Below, piece by piece: positions 7,439-25,209 of a stretch of 64,000 nucleotides of DNA (the stretch's first letter is position 1; every line of letters begins with the position of its first letter). A model generated the notes under the pieces. The model saw only the letters and a program-made list of their open reading frames with translations. It was not told where the DNA came from and did no database searches. Source of the stretch: Amycolatopsis endophytica (GTDB lineage Bacteria; Actinomycetota; Actinomycetes; Mycobacteriales; Pseudonocardiaceae); NCBI RefSeq assembly GCF_013410405.1, contig NZ_JACCFK010000001.1:2480001-2544000 (forward strand). Reading direction: 5' to 3'. Made by a program: the position numbers and the translations under genes.

Positions 7439-10222
7439 GTGCTCGAGGAACCACGCATCCAGCTGCTGGGACCGGTACAGCTGTTCGCCGGTGACCGGAC
7501 GGCGCCGATCGGCGGGCCCGGCGTCCGCGGGCTGCTCGCGCTGCTGGCGCTGAGCCCGAACCGGATCATCGCTCTCGACGAGCTGATCGACGTGCTGTGG
7601 AACCACGACCCGCCGCCGACGGCGCGGACGATCGTGCACGGCAACGTCTCGCAGCTGCGCCGGATCCTGCGGTCGTTCGACCCGGCGCGGATCAGGATCG
7701 ACACCGCGGCGCCCGGCTACCGGCTGGTGGTCGACCCGGCGCGGGTGGATGCCCACCACGCCCGCGCGTTGTTCGAGCGGGCCAGGACGGCGCCACCCGC
7801 CGAGCGCGCCGATCTGCTGGCGCGCGCGTGTTCGCTGTGGCAGGGGCCGGAACTGGGTGGCGTGCCGGAGACGGTGCGGGCGCCCGAGCTCGCCGACCTG
7901 CGGATCGCGGTGCACGGCGCGCGGGTCGACGCCGACCTCGCGCTCGGCAGGCACGCCGATCTCATCGCCGAGCTGACCCGGATCGTGCACGAAGATCCCC
8001 GGCGTGAACGCACGACTGGTCAGTTGATGCGCGCCCTCTACTACTCCGGACGGCGCGCCGACGCCCTGGAGGTGTACCGGTCCGCGGCGCGGTTCGCGTC
8101 GGATCGGCTCGGTCTCGATCCCGGCCCGGAGCTGCGGGCGCTGCACGAACGCGTGCTCAACGACGACCTCGCGCCGGCCGCGGTGCCGGTCGACGTGACC
8201 AGGGTGGTTCCGCGGCAGCTGCCGCCCGCGGTGCCGTCGTTGTCCGGGCGATCGGCGGATCTGGCGTGGCTGGAGAGCCTCGGCGCGGGCGCTGCGGGCG
8301 CGGGCACGGATGCGGGCGCGGGTGCCGCGCGCGTGGCCGCGGGTGCCGCTGTCGCGGTGATCACCGGGCCGCCGGGGATCGGCAAGAGCGCGCTCGCCGT
8401 GTCGTGGGCGCACGGGGCTGTCGAGCGGTTCCCGGACGGGGCGCTGTTCGCCACGTTGCGCGGGTTCGACTCGCCCGTGCCGGTGGCGGAGGTGCTGGCG
8501 CAGTTCCTGCTCGGGCTCGGGGTGGCGCCCGCCGACCTGCCGGAGTCCGAACGGGAACGGCTCGCGCTGTACCGGTCGCTGATCGGCGGGCGCCGGATAC
8601 TGGTCGTGCTGGACGACGCCCGGTCGGCCGAGCAGGTGCGGCCGTTGCTGCCGCCCGGGCCGGGGTCGGTGACCGTGGTGACGAGCCGGGCGCGGCTGGA
8701 TGGGCTGGCGGTTTCACACGGGGCACGGGTCCGGCGGCTGGAGCCGCTGGCCCGGCCGGACTCGGTGCGGTTGATCGCGGACGTGGCGGGTCGTGGCGCG
8801 GCCGAACACCACGAGCAGCTGGCGCGGTTGTGCGGAGATCTGCCGCTCGCGCTGCGGATCGCCGGGGCGCGGCTCGCGGCGGGTCCGGCGTGGACGGTGA
8901 CGGAGTTCGTGGCCGAGCTGGAGGGGGAGCGGACGCGGCTCGCGGCGCTGGACGTGGACGACGCCGGGGTGCGAGCGGCGCTGGACGTGTCGTACCGCGG
9001 GCTGCCGTCCGACGTGGCTTCGATGTTCCGGGTGCTGGGGGCCTTTCCCGGGCCCACGGTTGGTCCGTTCGTGGCGGCGGCGTTGTGCGGGGTGCCCGTG
9101 GCGGAGGCGCGGCGGCGGCTGCGCGTGCTGGCGGCGCACAACCTGCTGGCCGAAAGCGGCCCGGAGGTGTTCACGCGGCACGATCTGGTGCGGCTGTACC
9201 AGCGTGAGCTGGCTGGCGGGCTCCCGGTGCCGGGCAGGGCGATGACGTACTACCAGGCGGCGGCCGACCAGGCGCGACGCCGTTTGCTGCGGATCGTCGA
9301 CCCGGTGGACTTCTCGGGCGCGCCGGTCGAGTTGCCGCCGCCGGGCGGGTTCGACGAGGCACTGGCGTGGTTCGCGGCTGAGTGGCTGAACCTCTTGGCC
9401 GTGGTGGAGGCCGCGCACGAGTCGGGCCACTGGGACGACGTGTGGCGGCTCGCGCGGGTGGCCCACACGTACCGGGTGGTGCGTCCACTGTGGGACGAGT
9501 GGCGGCGGTTGGTGTCGCTGGGCATGGCGGCGGCGGAGGCATCGGGTGATCCCGAGGCGCGGTTCTGGATGCTGATCTCGCGCTGTGCCATGTCGTTGAC
9601 GTTCGACTTGGGAGGGGAGAGCCTGGCGGACGCGTCGGCCGCGGTGGCGGTCGCCGCGGACTCCCGCCGGGAGGTGATCGCGAAGATCCACCTGGGTTGT
9701 GCGCTGGACTGCTGCGGCAGGCACGAGGAGGCGATCTCGTGCCTGGTCGAGGCGGTGGAGGCGGCGTCGATGACCGGTGAGGACGAACTGCGGGGCCAGG
9801 CGCTGGCGAACTGCGCCGAAGCGTTGAAGGCGGCGGGGCGCTACGCCGAGGCGATCTCGCACCAGCTGGAGTCGTTGAAGATCGACAAGCGTCTCGGCGA
9901 CGAGAGCTATGTCGTCGTGTCACTGAACAACCTCGCCGAGTCGTACTTCAGCCTCGGCGACGACGCGACGGCCGCCGACTACGCCTCGGAAGCGGTGGAG
10001 CTGGCCTCGCGGCGCGGTTTCCTGCTGCAGGAGGCCGTCGGACGCGCCTCGCTGGGCCGGATCATGCGCCGCCGCGGCGACGACGAGGGAGCGCGCCTGC
10101 AACTCGGCCTGGCGGTCGATCTGCACCGGCGGGTCAGCCCCCGGCCGGCGCCGGAGGTGGTGGCGGAGCTGGCCGCGCTCGGGGTGGAGTCGCCGGACGA
10201 ACCCGGGTCGCCGGGCGCTTAG
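7439..10222 (+). CDS. AfsR/SARP-type regulator with NB-ARC and TPR domains
   Basis: About 927 residues. Order: an OmpR-like winged helix (about 1-95, beginning EEPRIQLLGPVQLFAGD), a bacterial transcriptional activation domain (about 100-245, ending LGLDPGPELRALHERVL), an NB-ARC ATPase with Walker A GPPGIGKSAL near residue 309 and Walker B LVVLDDA, then a TPR region toward the end (repeats such as ALANCAEALKAAGRYAEAI and SLNNLAESYFSLGD). Such proteins activate secondary-metabolite or stress genes and may be kinase-controlled. The GTG at 7439 is chosen because the family's first strand starts directly after it; the open frame extends upstream through the hairpin without conserved content. No biosynthetic cluster is adjacent, so the target is unknown. 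Confidence 0.9.
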   Translation: MLEEPRIQLLGPVQLFAGDRTAPIGGPGVRGLLALLALSPNRIIALDELIDVLWNHDPPPTARTIVHGNVSQLRRILRSFDPARIRIDTAAPGYRLVVDPARVDAHHARALFERARTAPPAERADLLARACSLWQGPELGGVPETVRAPELADLRIAVHGARVDADLALGRHADLIAELTRIVHEDPRRERTTGQLMRALYYSGRRADALEVYRSAARFASDRLGLDPGPELRALHERVLNDDLAPAAVPVDVTRVVPRQLPPAVPSLSGRSADLAWLESLGAGAAGAGTDAGAGAARVAAGAAVAVITGPPGIGKSALAVSWAHGAVERFPDGALFATLRGFDSPVPVAEVLAQFLLGLGVAPADLPESERERLALYRSLIGGRRILVVLDDARSAEQVRPLLPPGPGSVTVVTSRARLDGLAVSHGARVRRLEPLARPDSVRLIADVAGRGAAEHHEQLARLCGDLPLALRIAGARLAAGPAWTVTEFVAELEGERTRLAALDVDDAGVRAALDVSYRGLPSDVASMFRVLGAFPGPTVGPFVAAALCGVPVAEARRRLRVLAAHNLLAESGPEVFTRHDLVRLYQRELAGGLPVPGRAMTYYQAAADQARRRLLRIVDPVDFSGAPVELPPPGGFDEALAWFAAEWLNLLAVVEAAHESGHWDDVWRLARVAHTYRVVRPLWDEWRRLVSLGMAAAEASGDPEARFWMLISRCAMSLTFDLGGESLADASAAVAVAADSRREVIAKIHLGCALDCCGRHEEAISCLVEAVEAASMTGEDELRGQALANCAEALKAAGRYAEAISHQLESLKIDKRLGDESYVVVSLNNLAESYFSLGDDATAADYASEAVELASRRGFLLQEAVGRASLGRIMRRRGDDEGARLQLGLAVDLHRRVSPRPAPEVVAELAALGVESPDEPGSPGA

Positions 10223-10365
10223 CGGATCCTTAGCGGTGGATCTTGTGCGCGGCGTAGGGTGCCGCTTGGCCGTCTGGCGCAGTGGGGGAGCGTCAGACGG
10301 CCGTCCCAGGTTGCGCTGCCCGGCCGATGGACAGCTCCACGCGTTGCGCTCCCACGTCCGATCTC

Positions 10366-10650
10366 CGCACAGCGATGAACGGTCCGTTCATCGCTGTGCG
10401 AGGTCGCCTCTTGCTCCGGTGGTGAGTGGTCCGTTCATCGCCGGTTGAAAGGTCCGTTCATCGCCGTGCCGGGGGCGCCTCTTGCTCCGGCGATGAATGG
10501 CCCGTTCATCGAGCGCTGAGTGGTCCGTTCATCGCGCGCTGAGTGGTCCGTTCGTCGCCGGTGTGCCACTCCACTCCTCGGTGGTGAGTGGTCCGTTCGT
10601 CGCGCCCTGAGTGGTCCCTTCATCGCCGGTTGAAAGGTCCGTTCAACCAA
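10366..10650. repeat. Array of degenerate palindromes with a 23-bp period
   Basis: Nine copies of a TCCGTTC-like core start at 10383, 10430, 10453, 10501, 10524, 10547, 10592, 10615 and 10638, so the spacing is 23 bp or about twice that (45-48). The first copy is a perfect palindrome with 17-bp arms (10366-10382 and 10384-10400) around one T. Typical units read TGAGTGGTCCGTTCATCGC. A second motif, CGCCTCTTGCTCCGG, occurs in two of the long intervals. The array lies between two convergent genes, which fits a REP-like bidirectional terminator or nucleoid-protein site. The rest of 10223-10823 shows no gene. Confidence 0.75.
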
Positions 10651-10823
10651 GCCATTCCGTGCCCCGCTCCAGTGGCACCTCAGCGAGATGTCCGTTCGTG
10701 CCGACCGGCCAGTCACACCAGCTGACCGGTCGGCCCGTCACACCAGCCAGCCGACCAGCCCGTCACCCCAGCCCGTCACACCAGCCGACGTGGCCACTTC
10801 GACAGACGGCGTGCACGAGTCCA

Positions 10824-11705
10824 TCACTGGTCGAACAGGCTGACCTCGGGCGTGATCTCCAGCAGTTCGTGCACCGGGCGACCGCGGCGGCCGTCGATCG
10901 TCGTGGTGCGGACGACGCGCAGGCGGGCCGTCACGGGGCGGTCCAGGTTCTCCTTGATCTGGTCCAGCAGATCCGGCGCGACGGCCCCCTGGATCGTTCC
11001 CCCGGACTCGCGTTCCAGGTAGAAGATCCGGCGTCGGGTGCGCACACCGTCGAGGCGCCCGGTGACCGTCTCGTAGCCGATCTCCTCGCGGGACTCGCGC
11101 AGGCTGCTGTGCAGCACCTTCGCCTGGTCGGTCGTCATGCTGCGCGTCAGGTCCTCGCCGGCCGTCGGGGTCAGCGCCAGACCGATGCCGGTGTTCTTCA
11201 CGACCGCGCTGACGATGTCGCTCACCGCGTTGCGCACCGTGTCCCGCTGCAGCAGCACGGCGTCCAGCGCGCCGTCGTCGGAGCCGTTCGCGGGCAGGAA
11301 ATCGCACAATTCTTTCACCGCGCGCTCGGACAGCGTCTCGATCCCGTCGTGGATCAGGGCGTCGTCCGGCGCGGGCTCGGGGAAACCGAAGAAGATCGTG
11401 TTGCCGGCCTGCCCGCGCTGGATCAACGGCGCCTTGTCGCGATCCGCCTGCTGCACGTAGGTGATCTCGCCCTGCGGGTTGCGGATGATGTGCCCGACCT
11501 TCGCGGTCGCGTCCTGCAGCGCGCGGCTGATGTCGGAGAACGTGTACGCGTCCAGGTTCGTCGGCCCCATCACCGACACCCGCAGCAACGGCGACCTCGC
11601 CGTGCGCTCGAACTTCCAGTGCGCGGCCATCGCCGACGCCCGCGCCAGGTCGTCCAGCCACGTGCCACCCGGGATCTCGTCGGCGATCCGCCGGAAGTCC
11701 ATCAT
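10824..11705 (-). CDS. Unknown protein, second gene of a DUF6932-linked pair
   Basis: 293 residues from the ATG at 11705, which overlaps the TGA of the upstream gene by one base (TGATG), so translation is coupled. The N-terminal half starts MMDFRRIADEIPGGTW and has a predicted mixed alpha/beta part. The C-terminal quarter shows a beta-rich module: GRLDGVRTRRRIFYLE, then GTIQGAVAPDLLDQIKENLD, then RLRVVRTTTIDGRRGRPVHE, which looks like a small strand-rich binding fold. No signal peptide or membrane helix is present. I do not recognise a named family with certainty. The strict coupling to a nucleotidyltransferase-like partner suggests a two-component functional unit, possibly toxin-antitoxin-like; that is inference. 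Confidence 0.7.
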   Translation of the reverse strand: MMDFRRIADEIPGGTWLDDLARASAMAAHWKFERTARSPLLRVSVMGPTNLDAYTFSDISRALQDATAKVGHIIRNPQGEITYVQQADRDKAPLIQRGQAGNTIFFGFPEPAPDDALIHDGIETLSERAVKELCDFLPANGSDDGALDAVLLQRDTVRNAVSDIVSAVVKNTGIGLALTPTAGEDLTRSMTTDQAKVLHSSLRESREEIGYETVTGRLDGVRTRRRIFYLERESGGTIQGAVAPDLLDQIKENLDRPVTARLRVVRTTTIDGRRGRPVHELLEITPEVSLFDQ

Positions 11706-12184
11706 CACCACACCACCTCGGGGAAGCCGCGACGGCCCCCGTACGACCAGGTGTCGGCCCACGTCTCCTCGTCGCCGGGGAAACACAGGAACCCGTCCAG
11801 CAGACCACCGACCGGTTGTACCTGATCGAGGTACATCGCAGGCTGCCCGACGATGACCCCGCGCAGGGTCAGCAACCCGTACAGCGAGTCACGCACCCGG
11901 CCCGTCATGCGCTTGAGCCCGCCCCAGTCGTCGGGAAGGAGCACGACGTCGAGGCCGCCGGGAATGTCCGGGGTGCGGGTGATGAACTGCCCGCCGACCC
12001 AGGCGCGGCCGCTCGGGATGGTCCGGGCGACCGCGCCGAGATAGCTGTTCAGAGCGCTGAACAGGATCTCGCGGGCGTTCTGGTGCGGCGCGTCGAAGAC
12101 GAGACGTTCGTAGATGTCGGCCACGTCCGCCGGAAGCCGCCCGGGCGGAAGGACCCCGTCCGGGGTCCAGTGAGGCAGCGGCAT
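11705..12184 (-). CDS. DUF6932-like protein (nucleotidyltransferase-like fold suspected)
   Basis: 159 residues starting MPLPHWTPDGVLPPGRL. The opening, and the central VGGQFITRTPDIPGGLDVVL, resemble DUF6932 proteins, in which a G-x-F-x-T/S ... D-x-D-hydrophobic arrangement recalls minimal nucleotidyltransferases; here only one clear aspartate (GGLDVVL) is present, so catalysis is doubtful. The gene is coupled to the downstream unknown gene through a TGATG overlap and lies 31 bases after the SGNH hydrolase gene on the same strand, so the three may be one transcript. Family assignment is from remembered pattern and should be treated as moderate. Confidence 0.6.
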   Translation of the reverse strand: MPLPHWTPDGVLPPGRLPADVADIYERLVFDAPHQNAREILFSALNSYLGAVARTIPSGRAWVGGQFITRTPDIPGGLDVVLLPDDWGGLKRMTGRVRDSLYGLLTLRGVIVGQPAMYLDQVQPVGGLLDGFLCFPGDEETWADTWSYGGRRGFPEVVW

Positions 12185-16984: not shown

Positions 16985-17929
16985 ATGAGCGAGGCGAAGG
17001 AAGAGAGCAGCGAGAAGAAGGCTGGGTTGTCTCCGGCGCAGGTGCTGGCGTCGGCGCTGGCGGCCGTGACGGCTGCCTTCCTGGGCTCCACGCTGGGTGT
17101 GGCGGGAACGGTCATCGGTGCCGGGGTCGCGAGCATCGTGACGACGGTGGGCGGTGAGTTGTACCTGCGGTCGTTGCGGCGCACGCGCGCGGCGGCGCGC
17201 AAGACGGCCGAGTTGCTGGCCGTGTCGGAGAACCGGCAGCAGACGCGGATCATCCCGCCGACAGCCGCGCCGCGCTCGACGCACCCGCTCATCAGGTATC
17301 AGCAGAACGGGGCGCCGCAGCGCAGACCGGCGACGCAGCTGACGGACGTGCAACGGCCGGACGTGCAACGGACGCGGATCGTGCACCCGGTTTCGGCGCC
17401 GCTGTCCGGCACCACGCGCCGCATTCCGATGGCCGGGCAGGGCGGCTCCGGGAGTGGTGAGAAGACGGTCTTCATCCCGAAACCGCAGGATGCCGGGCCG
17501 GAGACGCTGGCGGTGGGCGGTGATCTGGAGGAACCGCCGTCCGACGGGAAGAAGCCCTGGTGGAAGAACCGGTGGACCCTGATCGGGGCCACGAGTGTCG
17601 TCGCGTTCGTGGTGGGGATGCTGGCGATCACCGGCTTCGAGGCGGCGACCGGGAGCACCGTGTCCGGCGGGGACGGCACCACACTGGGCCGGGTGGTCGG
17701 CGGATCGGGCAAAAGCGTGGAGACGACGTCGACCCAGGTGACGACCGTGACGGAAAGCTCATCCGCCGACGACGAACAGGCCCCCGCGACCACCAGTGCG
17801 ACGCCGACGGAGTCGTCGAGCACGGAGGAAACCGAGTCCCCCGTGACGACGACCGCCCCGAGCACGAGCGTGCCCGAAGAGCCTTCGGGCGCTTCGGAGA
17901 CGGTCACCACGGCGCCGAGCAGCCCCTGA
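16985..17929 (+). CDS. Unknown membrane protein with Ser/Thr-rich tail
   Basis: 314 residues. An acidic/basic start (MSEAKEESSEKKAGLSPAQ) leads into a glycine-rich hydrophobic stretch (about 19-55, with LGVAGTVIGAGVASIVTTVG) that may form a helical hairpin, a polar linker, one membrane helix (about 195-217, TLIGATSVVAFVVGMLAITG) after a lysine/tryptophan anchor, then about 85 residues of Ser/Thr/Glu-rich sequence. The topology suggests a cytoplasmic linker and a disordered extracellular tail. I do not recognise a named family. ATG 16985 is the first plausible start; a purine-rich GAGAGGGAGAG lies rather far upstream. A strong terminator follows. Confidence 0.7.
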   Translation: MSEAKEESSEKKAGLSPAQVLASALAAVTAAFLGSTLGVAGTVIGAGVASIVTTVGGELYLRSLRRTRAAARKTAELLAVSENRQQTRIIPPTAAPRSTHPLIRYQQNGAPQRRPATQLTDVQRPDVQRTRIVHPVSAPLSGTTRRIPMAGQGGSGSGEKTVFIPKPQDAGPETLAVGGDLEEPPSDGKKPWWKNRWTLIGATSVVAFVVGMLAITGFEAATGSTVSGGDGTTLGRVVGGSGKSVETTSTQVTTVTESSSADDEQAPATTSATPTESSSTEETESPVTTTAPSTSVPEEPSGASETVTTAPSSP

Positions 17930-17986: not shown

Positions 17987-18030
17987 AACGGGTCCTTCGC
18001 GGTTTCGGTCGCGAAGGACCCGTTTTTGTT
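17987..18030 (+). terminator. Strong intrinsic terminator
   Basis: Perfect 15-base arms (17987-18001 and 18010-18024), containing GGGTCCTTCGCG, close an 8-base loop and are followed by TTTTGTTTG. This is the clearest canonical terminator in the window. It ends the unknown membrane-protein transcript and may also protect the convergent thiE. Confidence 0.9.
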
Positions 18031-18157: not shown

Positions 18158-18201
18158 CGATGAACGGTCCGTTCATCGCTCGGTGAGCGTCCCATTCAAC
18201 C
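18158..18201. repeat. Second, small copy of the 23-bp-period palindrome family
   Basis: CGATGAACGG (18158-18167), T, CCGTTCATCG (18169-18178) is the same palindrome as the first unit of the array near 10.37 kb. A diverged second copy (core TCCCATTC at 18190, then AACCGG) follows 22 bases later. Like the main array it lies between convergent genes. Confidence 0.7.
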
Positions 18202-18214
18202 GGCAACGGAACCG

Positions 18215-18250
18215 GGCCGGGCGCCGACTCAGACGAGTCGGCGCCCGGCC
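18215..18250 (-). terminator. Hairpin directly after thiE
   Basis: Perfect 16-base arms (18215-18230 and 18235-18250) with a 4-base loop sit immediately after the thiE stop codon. The arms include GGGCGCCGACTC. There is no T-run on the minus strand. Confidence 0.75.
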
Positions 18251-18251
18251 G

Positions 18252-18908
18252 TCACCCCAGTTGGGTCCGCAACCCCCGCGCAGCTGCCTCCGGATCGGCT
18301 GCTTCCGTGATCGCCCGCACCACGACCACCCGTGAAGCCCCGGCCGCCAGCACCTCCGGCAACCGCTCGCCGTCGATGCCTCCGATGGCGAACCACGGCC
18401 GCGCGACGCCGGACTCCGCGGTCGCGCGCACCAGTTCCAACCCCGGCGCCGGGCGGCCCGGTTTCGTGGGCGTCGGCCAGCAGGGGCCGGTGCAGAAGTA
18501 GTCCACGCCCGCCTCGACCGACGCCGCGCGGGCCTGGTCCACGTCGTGCGTCGAGCGGCCGATCACCGGCTCCTCGCCGACGATGCGGCGTGCGACCGGC
18601 ACCGGCAGATCGTCCTGGCCCAGATGCAGCACATCCGCCTCGACCGCGAGCGCGATGTCCGCCCGGTCGTTCACCGCCAGCAGGGCCCCGTGCCGGGCGC
18701 ACGCCTCGGCCAGGATTTCCAGCGCCGCGAGTTCCTGACGGGCCTCCAGCGGGGCCCCCTCGCGCTTGTCCCGCAGCTGAACGATGTCCACCCCGCCCGC
18801 GAGCGCGGCATCGGCGAACTCGGCCAGGTCCGGCCGGTCCCCGGTACACAGGTAGAGCCGTGCCACGTCGAGGCGCTTCCTGATCTCGTCACCACTGAGC
18901 CCTGGCAT
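18252..18908 (-). CDS. thiE: Thiamine-phosphate synthase ThiE
   Basis: 218 residues of the TIM-barrel thiamine-phosphate synthase, which joins HMP pyrophosphate to thiazole phosphate. Visible pieces: [19 protein letters not shown] (pyrophosphate-binding arginine and lysine), [32 protein letters not shown], and [16 protein letters not shown] with the phosphate loop GGI near the end. ATG 18908 is preferred to an in-frame GTG at 18929. The gene is divergent from thiO and lies outside the riboswitch that controls thiO, so it may have a separate, uncontrolled promoter. Confidence 0.95.
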
Positions 18909-18947
18909 GGCCCCGACCCTATCTCGCACGTTAGGGTGGAGGTGTCC

Positions 18948-19037
18948 GCACGGGAGCCCGAGCCACGGGCTGAGAGGGAGCTGCCAGCGCTCCGACCGTG
19001 GAACCTGATCCGGATCATGCCGGCGCAGGGAGCGTGA
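18948..19037 (+). ncRNA. TPP riboswitch (THI element) upstream of thiO
   Basis: The conserved pieces are in order: GGGCTGAGAGGGA (from 18967), ACCGTGGAACCTGATC (from 18995), CGGATCATGCCGGCGCAGGGAG (19011-19032, listed by position). The closing stem CACG (18949-18952) pairs with CGTG (19033-19036). The 3' end contains the GGGAG that serves as the thiO ribosome site, so ligand binding probably blocks translation. Confidence 0.95.
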
Positions 19038-19042
19038 TCTTC

Positions 19043-20148
19043 ATGAGCAACCATCATGTGGCGGTCGTCGGCGGCGGGGTCATCGGCCTGTCCGTGGCCT
19101 GGCGCGCCGCGGCAGCCGGGCACCGGGTGACGGTCGTCGACCCCGCGCCCGGCCGCGGCGCGTCCTGGGTGGCCGGCGGCATGCTGGCCCCACTCGCCGA
19201 AGCCTGGCCCGGCGAAGAAGCAGCCCTCGCCCTCGGGGAGGAGTCCCTCAACCGCTGGCCGGAGTTCGCGCAAGCGCTTGCGGCGGACGGTGGCAACCCC
19301 GGTCTGTCGCAGGCGGGCACTGTCGTCGTGGCCCTGGACCGCGCCGACGCGGACCAGCTCGACATCCAGGCCGCGTACCTGCGCTCGGTCGGCCGCGAGG
19401 TCGAGCAGGTCACCGGCAGGTCCCTCCGCTCCCTCGAACCCGGTCTGGGCGCGGTCCGCGGCGGTCTGCTCGTGCCCGGCGACCTGGCCGTCGACAACCG
19501 CAAGCTCCTGCGCTCCCTCGAAACCGCCGCACTACGTCACGGTGCGGAGTTCACCGGCGACCGGGCGGTCGCCGTCCAACCCGGCTGCGTGCGCACGGCG
19601 CACTGCGAAGTCCGGTGCGACGCCGTCGTGGTCGCCGCGGGCGCCCGCAGCGCGGAACTGCACCCCGTGCTCGCGCGCGGTGTCCGTCCGCTCAAGGGCG
19701 AGATCCTCCGTCTGCGGGCGAGGCGCACGAGCCTGCCACCTCCCACGCGCACGGTTCGCGCTGTCGTCGAGGGGCGACCGGTGTACCTCGTGCCGCGCGA
19801 GGACGGCGAACTCGTCCTCGGCGCGACCCAGTACGAGGCGGGCTTCGACGAGACCGTCAGTGCCAAGGGCGTGCGGGAACTCATCGAGGCCGCCGAACGG
19901 ATCTTCCCGAGCGTCGGCGAGTACGAGCTCACGGAAACGGCGGCGGGACTGCGTTCGGCGAGCGCGGACACGCTCCCGTTCATCGGTGACCTGGGTGACG
20001 GCGTCCTCGCCGCGACCGGGCACCACCGCAACGGTCTGCTCATGGCGCCGGTCACCGCCGACGCCGTGCTGGCCTGGCTGGCCGGGGAAAAACCGCCCGA
20101 GGAGGCGCTCGCGGCGGACCCGGCCCGCCTGGAAACCGGAGGAGTCTG

Positions 20149-23337: not shown

Positions 23338-25094
<1,757 letters not shown>

Positions 25095-25209
25095 GTTCGG
25101 TTGTCCTGCCGACCATGCCACGCCGCGCGGCAGACCTCAAGGGCGCGACCGTGAAACCGCTCACCCGGGCCGGCGTTTCACACCGGTGTGAGGGCTTAGG
25201 TTGACGATC

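Follow-up and report, generated by a model that had tools for sequence, protein, structure and literature searches.

The window, that is, the whole stretch of 64,000 nucleotides analyzed here, belongs to a genome of 7.2 Mb (G000) in the family Pseudonocardiaceae. It carries an array of nine palindromic cores in the gap between two genes (Table 1) that a sequence-only reading of the window had described as convergent, and our own gene caller confirmed this orientation. That reading had also claimed nine cores at spacings of 47, 23, 48, 23, 23, 45, 23 and 23 bases, the first with perfect 17-nt arms. The observed core starts match these spacings, and the first copy does have perfect arms around a single central base. 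The strict 23-bp period, in contrast, holds for five of the eight intervals only, the other three being 45-48 bp, about twice 23. With at most two mismatches allowed, TGARNGGYCCGTTCRTCG matched 13 times when both strands of the window were searched; these matches fall at 10 places, 3 of which are read on both strands. Since 100 dinucleotide shuffles gave an expectation of 0.20 matches (sd 0.49, largest 2), the array is not a product of chance.

A second, related element lies further along the window, also between convergent genes, as had been proposed; its step, however, is 23 bp and not the 22 first reported, with cores starting at 18161 and 18184. Its second copy is degenerate, with three mismatches to TGAACGGNCCGTTCA, and the pair is weaker than the main array. 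Two other kinds of feature were observed. Positions 10701-10788, between the main array and the minus-strand gene, hold a separate short tandem repeat with steps of about 25 bp (CCAGCC/GTCACACCAGC), and two TPP riboswitches (Rfam RF00059) occupy 18940-19048 and 24975-25101.

Table 1. The two repeat elements of the window and the features around them (window positions).
Feature	Positions	Strand	Remarks
Flanking gene	7439-10222	+	SARP/AfsR-like regulator (BTAD, TPR)
Hairpin	10268-10302	+	13-nt arms, 92% complementary; outside the array; starts 46 bp past the stop of the + gene
Array	10366-10654	.	Nine cores; ends with the last 24-nt copy
Site 1	10366-10400	.	Palindrome, perfect 17-nt arms and one-base centre
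Core 1	10376-10390		Within site 1; exact match to TGAAYGGNCCRTTCA
Core 2	10423-10437	.	TGAGTGGTCCGTTCA
Core 3	10446-10460	.	TGAAAGGTCCGTTCA
Core 4	10494-10508	.	TGAATGGCCCGTTCA; matches TGAAYGGNCCRTTCA exactly
Core 5	10517-10531	.	TGAGTGGTCCGTTCA
Core 6	10540-10554	.	TGAGTGGTCCGTTCG
Core 7	10585-10599	.	TGAGTGGTCCGTTCG
Core 8	10608-10622	.	TGAGTGGTCCCTTCA
Core 9	10631-10645	.	TGAAAGGTCCGTTCA
Flanking gene	10824-11711	-	No Pfam match; conserved in 19/19 genomes of the genus
Hairpin	17988-18027	+	With T-run, after the + gene ending at 17929; read by eye
Second element, exact core	18158-18178	.	Core 18161-18175 with 10-nt arms
Second element, degenerate copy	18184-18198	.	23 bp further on
Hairpin	18215-18250	-	16-nt arms, just past the stop of the - gene 18252-18908

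The core of these sites is a 15-bp dyad, TGAAYGGNCCRTTCA, exact copies of which are present in 14 of the 19 genomes of the genus (Amycolatopsis). Eight genomes are rich in it (11 exact cores in G000, 36 in G002, 22 in G003, 43 in G005, 28 in G010, 16 in G013, 19 in G016 and 45 in G017), and the remaining ones hold two exact cores (one genome), one (five genomes) or none (five genomes). The reversed core, used as a control, matched once per strand, in a single one of the 19 genomes. The largest arrays comprise up to 19 sites when at most two mismatches are allowed. Across the family, a pair of exact cores 29-59 bp apart was found in 12 of 390 genomes, namely the eight rich ones, three of the 25 of a second genus (g48) and one of a third, and the control gave no such pair. 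Two near relatives of the carriers, G001 and G012 (89-96% protein identity over three probes), have one exact core each and no pair at 29-59 bp. Thus, as judged by sequence comparison, the family is real and patchily spread: satellite-like arrays built on a conserved DNA dyad that, as the sequence-only reading had it, lie outside coding sequence.

A 19-letter version of the core matched 22 stretches among genome contigs. Six of these come from Amycolatopsis and contain several cores apiece; the other 16 have one exact core each. A 41-letter two-site pattern had no match in the genome contigs, neither of two patterns matched the viral contigs, and one array of the many, used as a query, had no match in plasmids or phages. 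No substitute palindrome array was found in 300 kb of the array-free G006 or in 100 kb of G016, where the search returned five chance-like clusters of unlike palindromes with no repeated core. In other genera, we observed a 30-bp tandem repeat present four times with a TGAAYGGNCCRTTCA-type core, exact in two copies and with one mismatch in two (L091:1471-1575, G031), and a lone 35-bp perfect palindrome around the family core, equal in length to the first site of the window (L099:1491-1525, G025).

Sorted by neighbouring genes, the 40 clusters of the first genus that contain one or more exact cores fell into 19 groups; later locus groups were built from neighbour lengths and Pfam names. Ten of the 19 groups, among them a lone core overlapping a called gene, were found in at least two species. 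The scanned neighbours have no common function and include a TetR regulator with a sigma factor, a lyase with a WYL regulator, SARP, DUF3145, an amidase, an MFS transporter and a Rieske oxygenase, among others.

Within arrays, the cores are more alike than the spacers between them (mean identity 0.87 versus 0.63), and the core was better kept in 22 of 22 arrays. Between orthologous loci, the core was again the more conserved part (0.86 versus 0.66) in all 50 directed comparisons, for which the cores had been taken from a single species. Because the sites were found by core match and aligners anchor on conserved words, both figures are somewhat too high. The spacers are related to each other within arrays (identity 0.39-0.77), which agrees with the earlier statement that these are not CRISPR arrays, and no cas domain was detected among 50 scanned proteins, mostly products of flanking genes. 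In array L041, the spacers matched best at lags of five and ten units (0.79 and 0.78, against 0.43-0.51 at most other lags), indicating that blocks of five units have been duplicated. The expansion that the sequence-only reading had supposed thus appears here as tandem duplication. Moreover, resemblance to the core was highest at a distance of 23 bp on both sides of strong sites, scoring 7.24 of 14 versus 4.66 after shuffling; the average sequence there is a weaker dyad, approximately CGASTGG-N-CCASTCG, with its near half-site better kept.

Similar arrays of the TGAAYGGNCCRTTCA core were found in three genomes of the second genus (G117, G126 and G128), with steps of 23, 31-33, 41-42, 50-52 and 72-74 bp and often with a different flank, GGT-core-ACC. 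One of them (L218:6670-7470, G128) has 16 sites followed by a long C-run and separates ftsW from murG, murC, ftsQ and ftsZ; about 360 bp are left between this array and murG, and they could hold a promoter.

We considered whether the arrays act as RNA, that is, as REP-like hairpins terminating the transcripts of two convergent genes. Several observations point this way: some arrays nearly fill the interval between the two stop codons, the genus has nine convergent loci among 20 distinct ones (an enrichment against one of two baselines, given below), and predicted RNA folding is stronger for the arrays (mean z -3.3 and -3.4) than for control gaps (-2.05). Stronger folding, however, is expected of any set of palindromes, and changes in one arm are not balanced by changes in the other. 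Single changes at the variable arm pair were common (74 T-G and 59 C-A), while the compensated double change occurred 17 times versus about 28 under independence, and was therefore rarer than expected (Fisher p 0.003). In these alignments, this pattern is the opposite of that of a conserved stem. Covariation was seen in the second genus at position 8, which lies outside the core (0.53 paired versus 0.38 expected), and not at the core positions. In this respect, the element does not behave as an intrinsic terminator: its stem is not kept by compensating changes at the arm pair of the first genus or at the core positions of the second.

The gene context also argues against termination. The genes at both elements of the window are already followed by hairpins outside the arrays (Table 1), and the arms of the one behind the plus-strand gene of the main array are identical in the G017 ortholog, which has no core at all; the second element is itself flanked by a hairpin on each side. 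In addition, 13 of the 25 distinct loci of both genera lie in tandem gaps, and an array of 16 sites stands between ftsW and murG, although the gap left before murG could hold a promoter. The bidirectional terminator was therefore not borne out, and we regard it as quite improbable; of the two functions that the sequence-only reading had offered, termination or protein binding, the second proved the better half.

Membership in the REP family was not borne out either. REP sequences are defined by a GTAG or CGTC tetranucleotide tag at one end of the palindrome (PMC3733652), and their copy number is usually above 100 per genome (PMC2817692). Of the 267 cores in our set, at most 7 have GTAG/CTAC and at most 18 have CGTC/GACG at a distance of up to 8 nt, and the eight rich genomes hold 11-45 copies each, a count that covers exact cores only. 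The arrays resemble REP/BIME and CGTC repeats as short intergenic palindromes, some of them clustered, but differ from REP/BIME in having no GTAG or CGTC tag, few copies and arms without compensation.

Next to core conservation, the spacing of the sites carries a signal. Among sites with at most one mismatch, adjacent spacings cluster at 23, 31-32, 45-54, 72-76, 82-86 and 92-97 bp, with few at 42 and 62-63 bp. Over 25 locus groups, spacings between 26 and 130 bp gave a mean cosine of 0.375 at a period of 10.5 bp, with 19 groups positive (Wilcoxon p 0.011, t-test p 0.007); L189 was kept as its own group in this test, though its DUF3145 neighbour suggests the L040 locus. Other periods gave negative (9.75 and 11.25 bp) or weakly positive values (9.25, 12.0 and 12.25 bp). 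Pooling the distinct spacings gave R 0.386 (n=131) at a nominal p of 3e-9, to be read with the fact that spacings are not independent. R was 0.324 in the first genus (n=92) and 0.534 in the second (n=39), with a phase near zero in both. Leaving out spacings of 45-51 bp raises R to 0.51, an exclusion chosen after the data were seen. The 23-bp step exceeds two turns by 2 bp and is out of phase, as are the window locus and the two loci with 46/50-bp units. These spacings suggest that strong sites tend toward the same face of the helix, with a phasing that is partial.

The sequence-only reading had expected copies to concentrate between convergent genes. Grouping loci by hand, and leaving out single-core places and G008, we counted nine convergent, nine tandem and two divergent loci in the genus (10, 9 and 2 if G008, with two exact cores in a convergent gap, is counted) and 10, 13 and 2 with the second genus included. 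Convergent gaps were enriched in the genus against non-array gaps of the array-bearing clade (p 0.003), but not against G006 plus G016 (p 0.10), and the same two baselines gave p 0.007 and 0.21 for both genera. The expectation thus holds for 9 of 20 loci and against one baseline, with as many loci in tandem gaps. Divergent gaps were depleted (p 0.007 and 0.06 in the genus, 0.001 and 0.02 in both genera), and the steadier signal is avoidance of divergent promoters.

This avoidance bears on another possibility, that the cores are operators or decoy sites titrating an ordinary transcription factor. In size and symmetry the core is like an operator, and several flanking genes are regulators; yet divergent gaps hold only 2 of the 20 distinct genus loci, and only one isolated exact core is shared between two species (L033 and L073), in each of which it overlaps a called gene at a similar place. 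We find this explanation very unlikely.

What do the arrays do, then? Our model suggests that they are read as DNA: by comparison of the sequences, the satellite-like dyad arrays are most likely bound by a putative dimeric protein, and we consider this reading probable. A dimer would recognize TGAAYGGNCCRTTCA in double-stranded form, one subunit per TGAAYGG half-site. Neighbouring dimers would be in contact at a distance of 23 bp, the position of the weaker secondary sites beside the strong ones, and strong sites farther apart, mostly at about whole helical turns, would let the dimers share one face and build a larger nucleoprotein complex. The arrays themselves would lengthen and shorten through tandem duplication of single units or whole blocks, for the most part in gaps that lack divergent promoters. 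The reader protein, its dimeric state and its cooperativity are what we infer, and to our knowledge, no protein is known to bind these arrays. In favor of a protein reader are the better conservation of cores than of spacers, the variable arm pair without compensation, the secondary sites at 23 bp and the 10.5-bp signal in the spacings; in addition, the same core occurs in the second genus with other flanks and other steps. Against it stand the somewhat inflated conservation figures, the only partial phasing, the stronger RNA folding, the covariation at position 8 in the second genus and the lack of an extra ParB in carriers: ParB_N matched one protein in 11 of 11 carriers, and one in nine and two in one of 10 non-carriers.

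A further point against a protein reader is that, in other species, unrelated repeats occupy two of the gaps, which is what a neutral reading would predict. Under this alternative, the arrays are neutral or selfish satellites: repeats can expand in promoter-free gaps, and the core either persists through homogenisation or is itself the sequence favoring duplication, with no reader. At the window locus, the stop-to-stop gap is 601 bp in G000 versus 33-34 bp in G012 and G001. The G017 ortholog (L204:2949-3787) has 839 bp without a core, filled by a different GC-rich satellite in which a 52-nt stretch is present 15 times at steps of 10-118, with blocks 186-206 bp apart. The TetR-sigma gap holds palindrome arrays in G002, G005, G010, G013 and G017 and measures 1037 bp in G017, 820 in G005 and 38 in G000; in G003 (L200:3208-3842), it contains a two-copy repeat with copies about 164 bp apart. 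Such gaps thus tolerate repeats of several kinds, as the unrelated repeats and the variation in gap length indicate, and this favors the neutral reading, as do flanking genes without a theme, the block duplication and the fact that G001 and G012 do without arrays. Homogenisation, however, should keep the spacers too, yet the cores were the better kept part in every array; one core also recurs in another genus with other flanks, and helical spacing would not be expected. On balance, we consider neutral satellites unlikely, though less so than the terminator.

As to the function of a protein-bound array, the closest layout is that of sopC, the parS of the F plasmid, described as twelve 43-bp direct repeats, each around a 16-bp inverted repeat bound by a SopB dimer (PMC6238139). 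Here, tandem repeats of 46-95 or 23 bp surround a 15-bp dyad; in contrast to sopC, the arrays are chromosomal and occupy many loci, their sequence is unrelated as far as seen, and the carriers have no extra ParB_N. By this analogy, the putative complex might organize or anchor the chromosome in the manner of sopC, which is a guess that we hold tentatively. It is similarly doubtful, though conceivable, that the arrays constitute a clade-restricted organizer, with dimers on phased dyads at up to about a dozen loci serving as a scattered centromere or anchor, absent in close relatives and recurring in another genus.

Constant-size tandem repeats of 52 and 20-21 nt, intergenic and with short conserved signals, have been described in Bacillus by Subirana and Messeguer (PMC8161180), who, in the passages considered here, report them as restricted to species and partly conserved in place and suggest polymerising proteins or small RNAs. 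A short signal common to the repeats of a genome is a shared trait (here the 15-bp core), and a 51-54 bp class occurs here too. The present arrays differ in showing several length classes in one genome, one core, two genera and an actinomycete host of 70% GC, and those passages describe no dyad core, 23-bp secondary sites or helical spacing for the Bacillus satellites. For A. mediterranei, the same authors give 23 satellites (PMC6749651). Among the matches listed, which comprised titles and the beginnings of abstracts, no such arrays were described for Amycolatopsis or Pseudonocardiaceae, and four spellings of the core were not found in a full-text literature search, whose scope was papers outside subscription.

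Bacterial intergenic tandem repeats with short conserved signals had thus already been reported, without a known reader. Here, they come with one core common to two genera, a helix period in the spacing, and array-bearing and array-free relatives side by side, so that the old question of whether intergenic arrays bind a protein is made testable. Alpha satellite combines tandem monomers, a short protein box (the CENP-B box), a diverged remainder and higher-order blocks; the arrays described here, in contrast, are bacterial and about 1 kb or less. Overall, the sequence-only reading of the window was partly supported.

Finally, we recorded where the arrays lie on the chromosome. The 16-bp parS consensus had no exact match in eight carriers, and origins were therefore placed by dnaA. 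In G000, G003, G013 and G017, 14 of the 15 distinct loci whose arrays have at least two exact cores are on the upstream side of dnaA (p 0.001), at distances of 0.2-2.9 Mb. Both arrays of G016 lie on the opposite side of dnaA, as do two lone exact cores of G003, and with the G016 arrays the count becomes 14 of 17 (p 0.013). In the second genus, the two arrays of G117 lie one on each side of parB.
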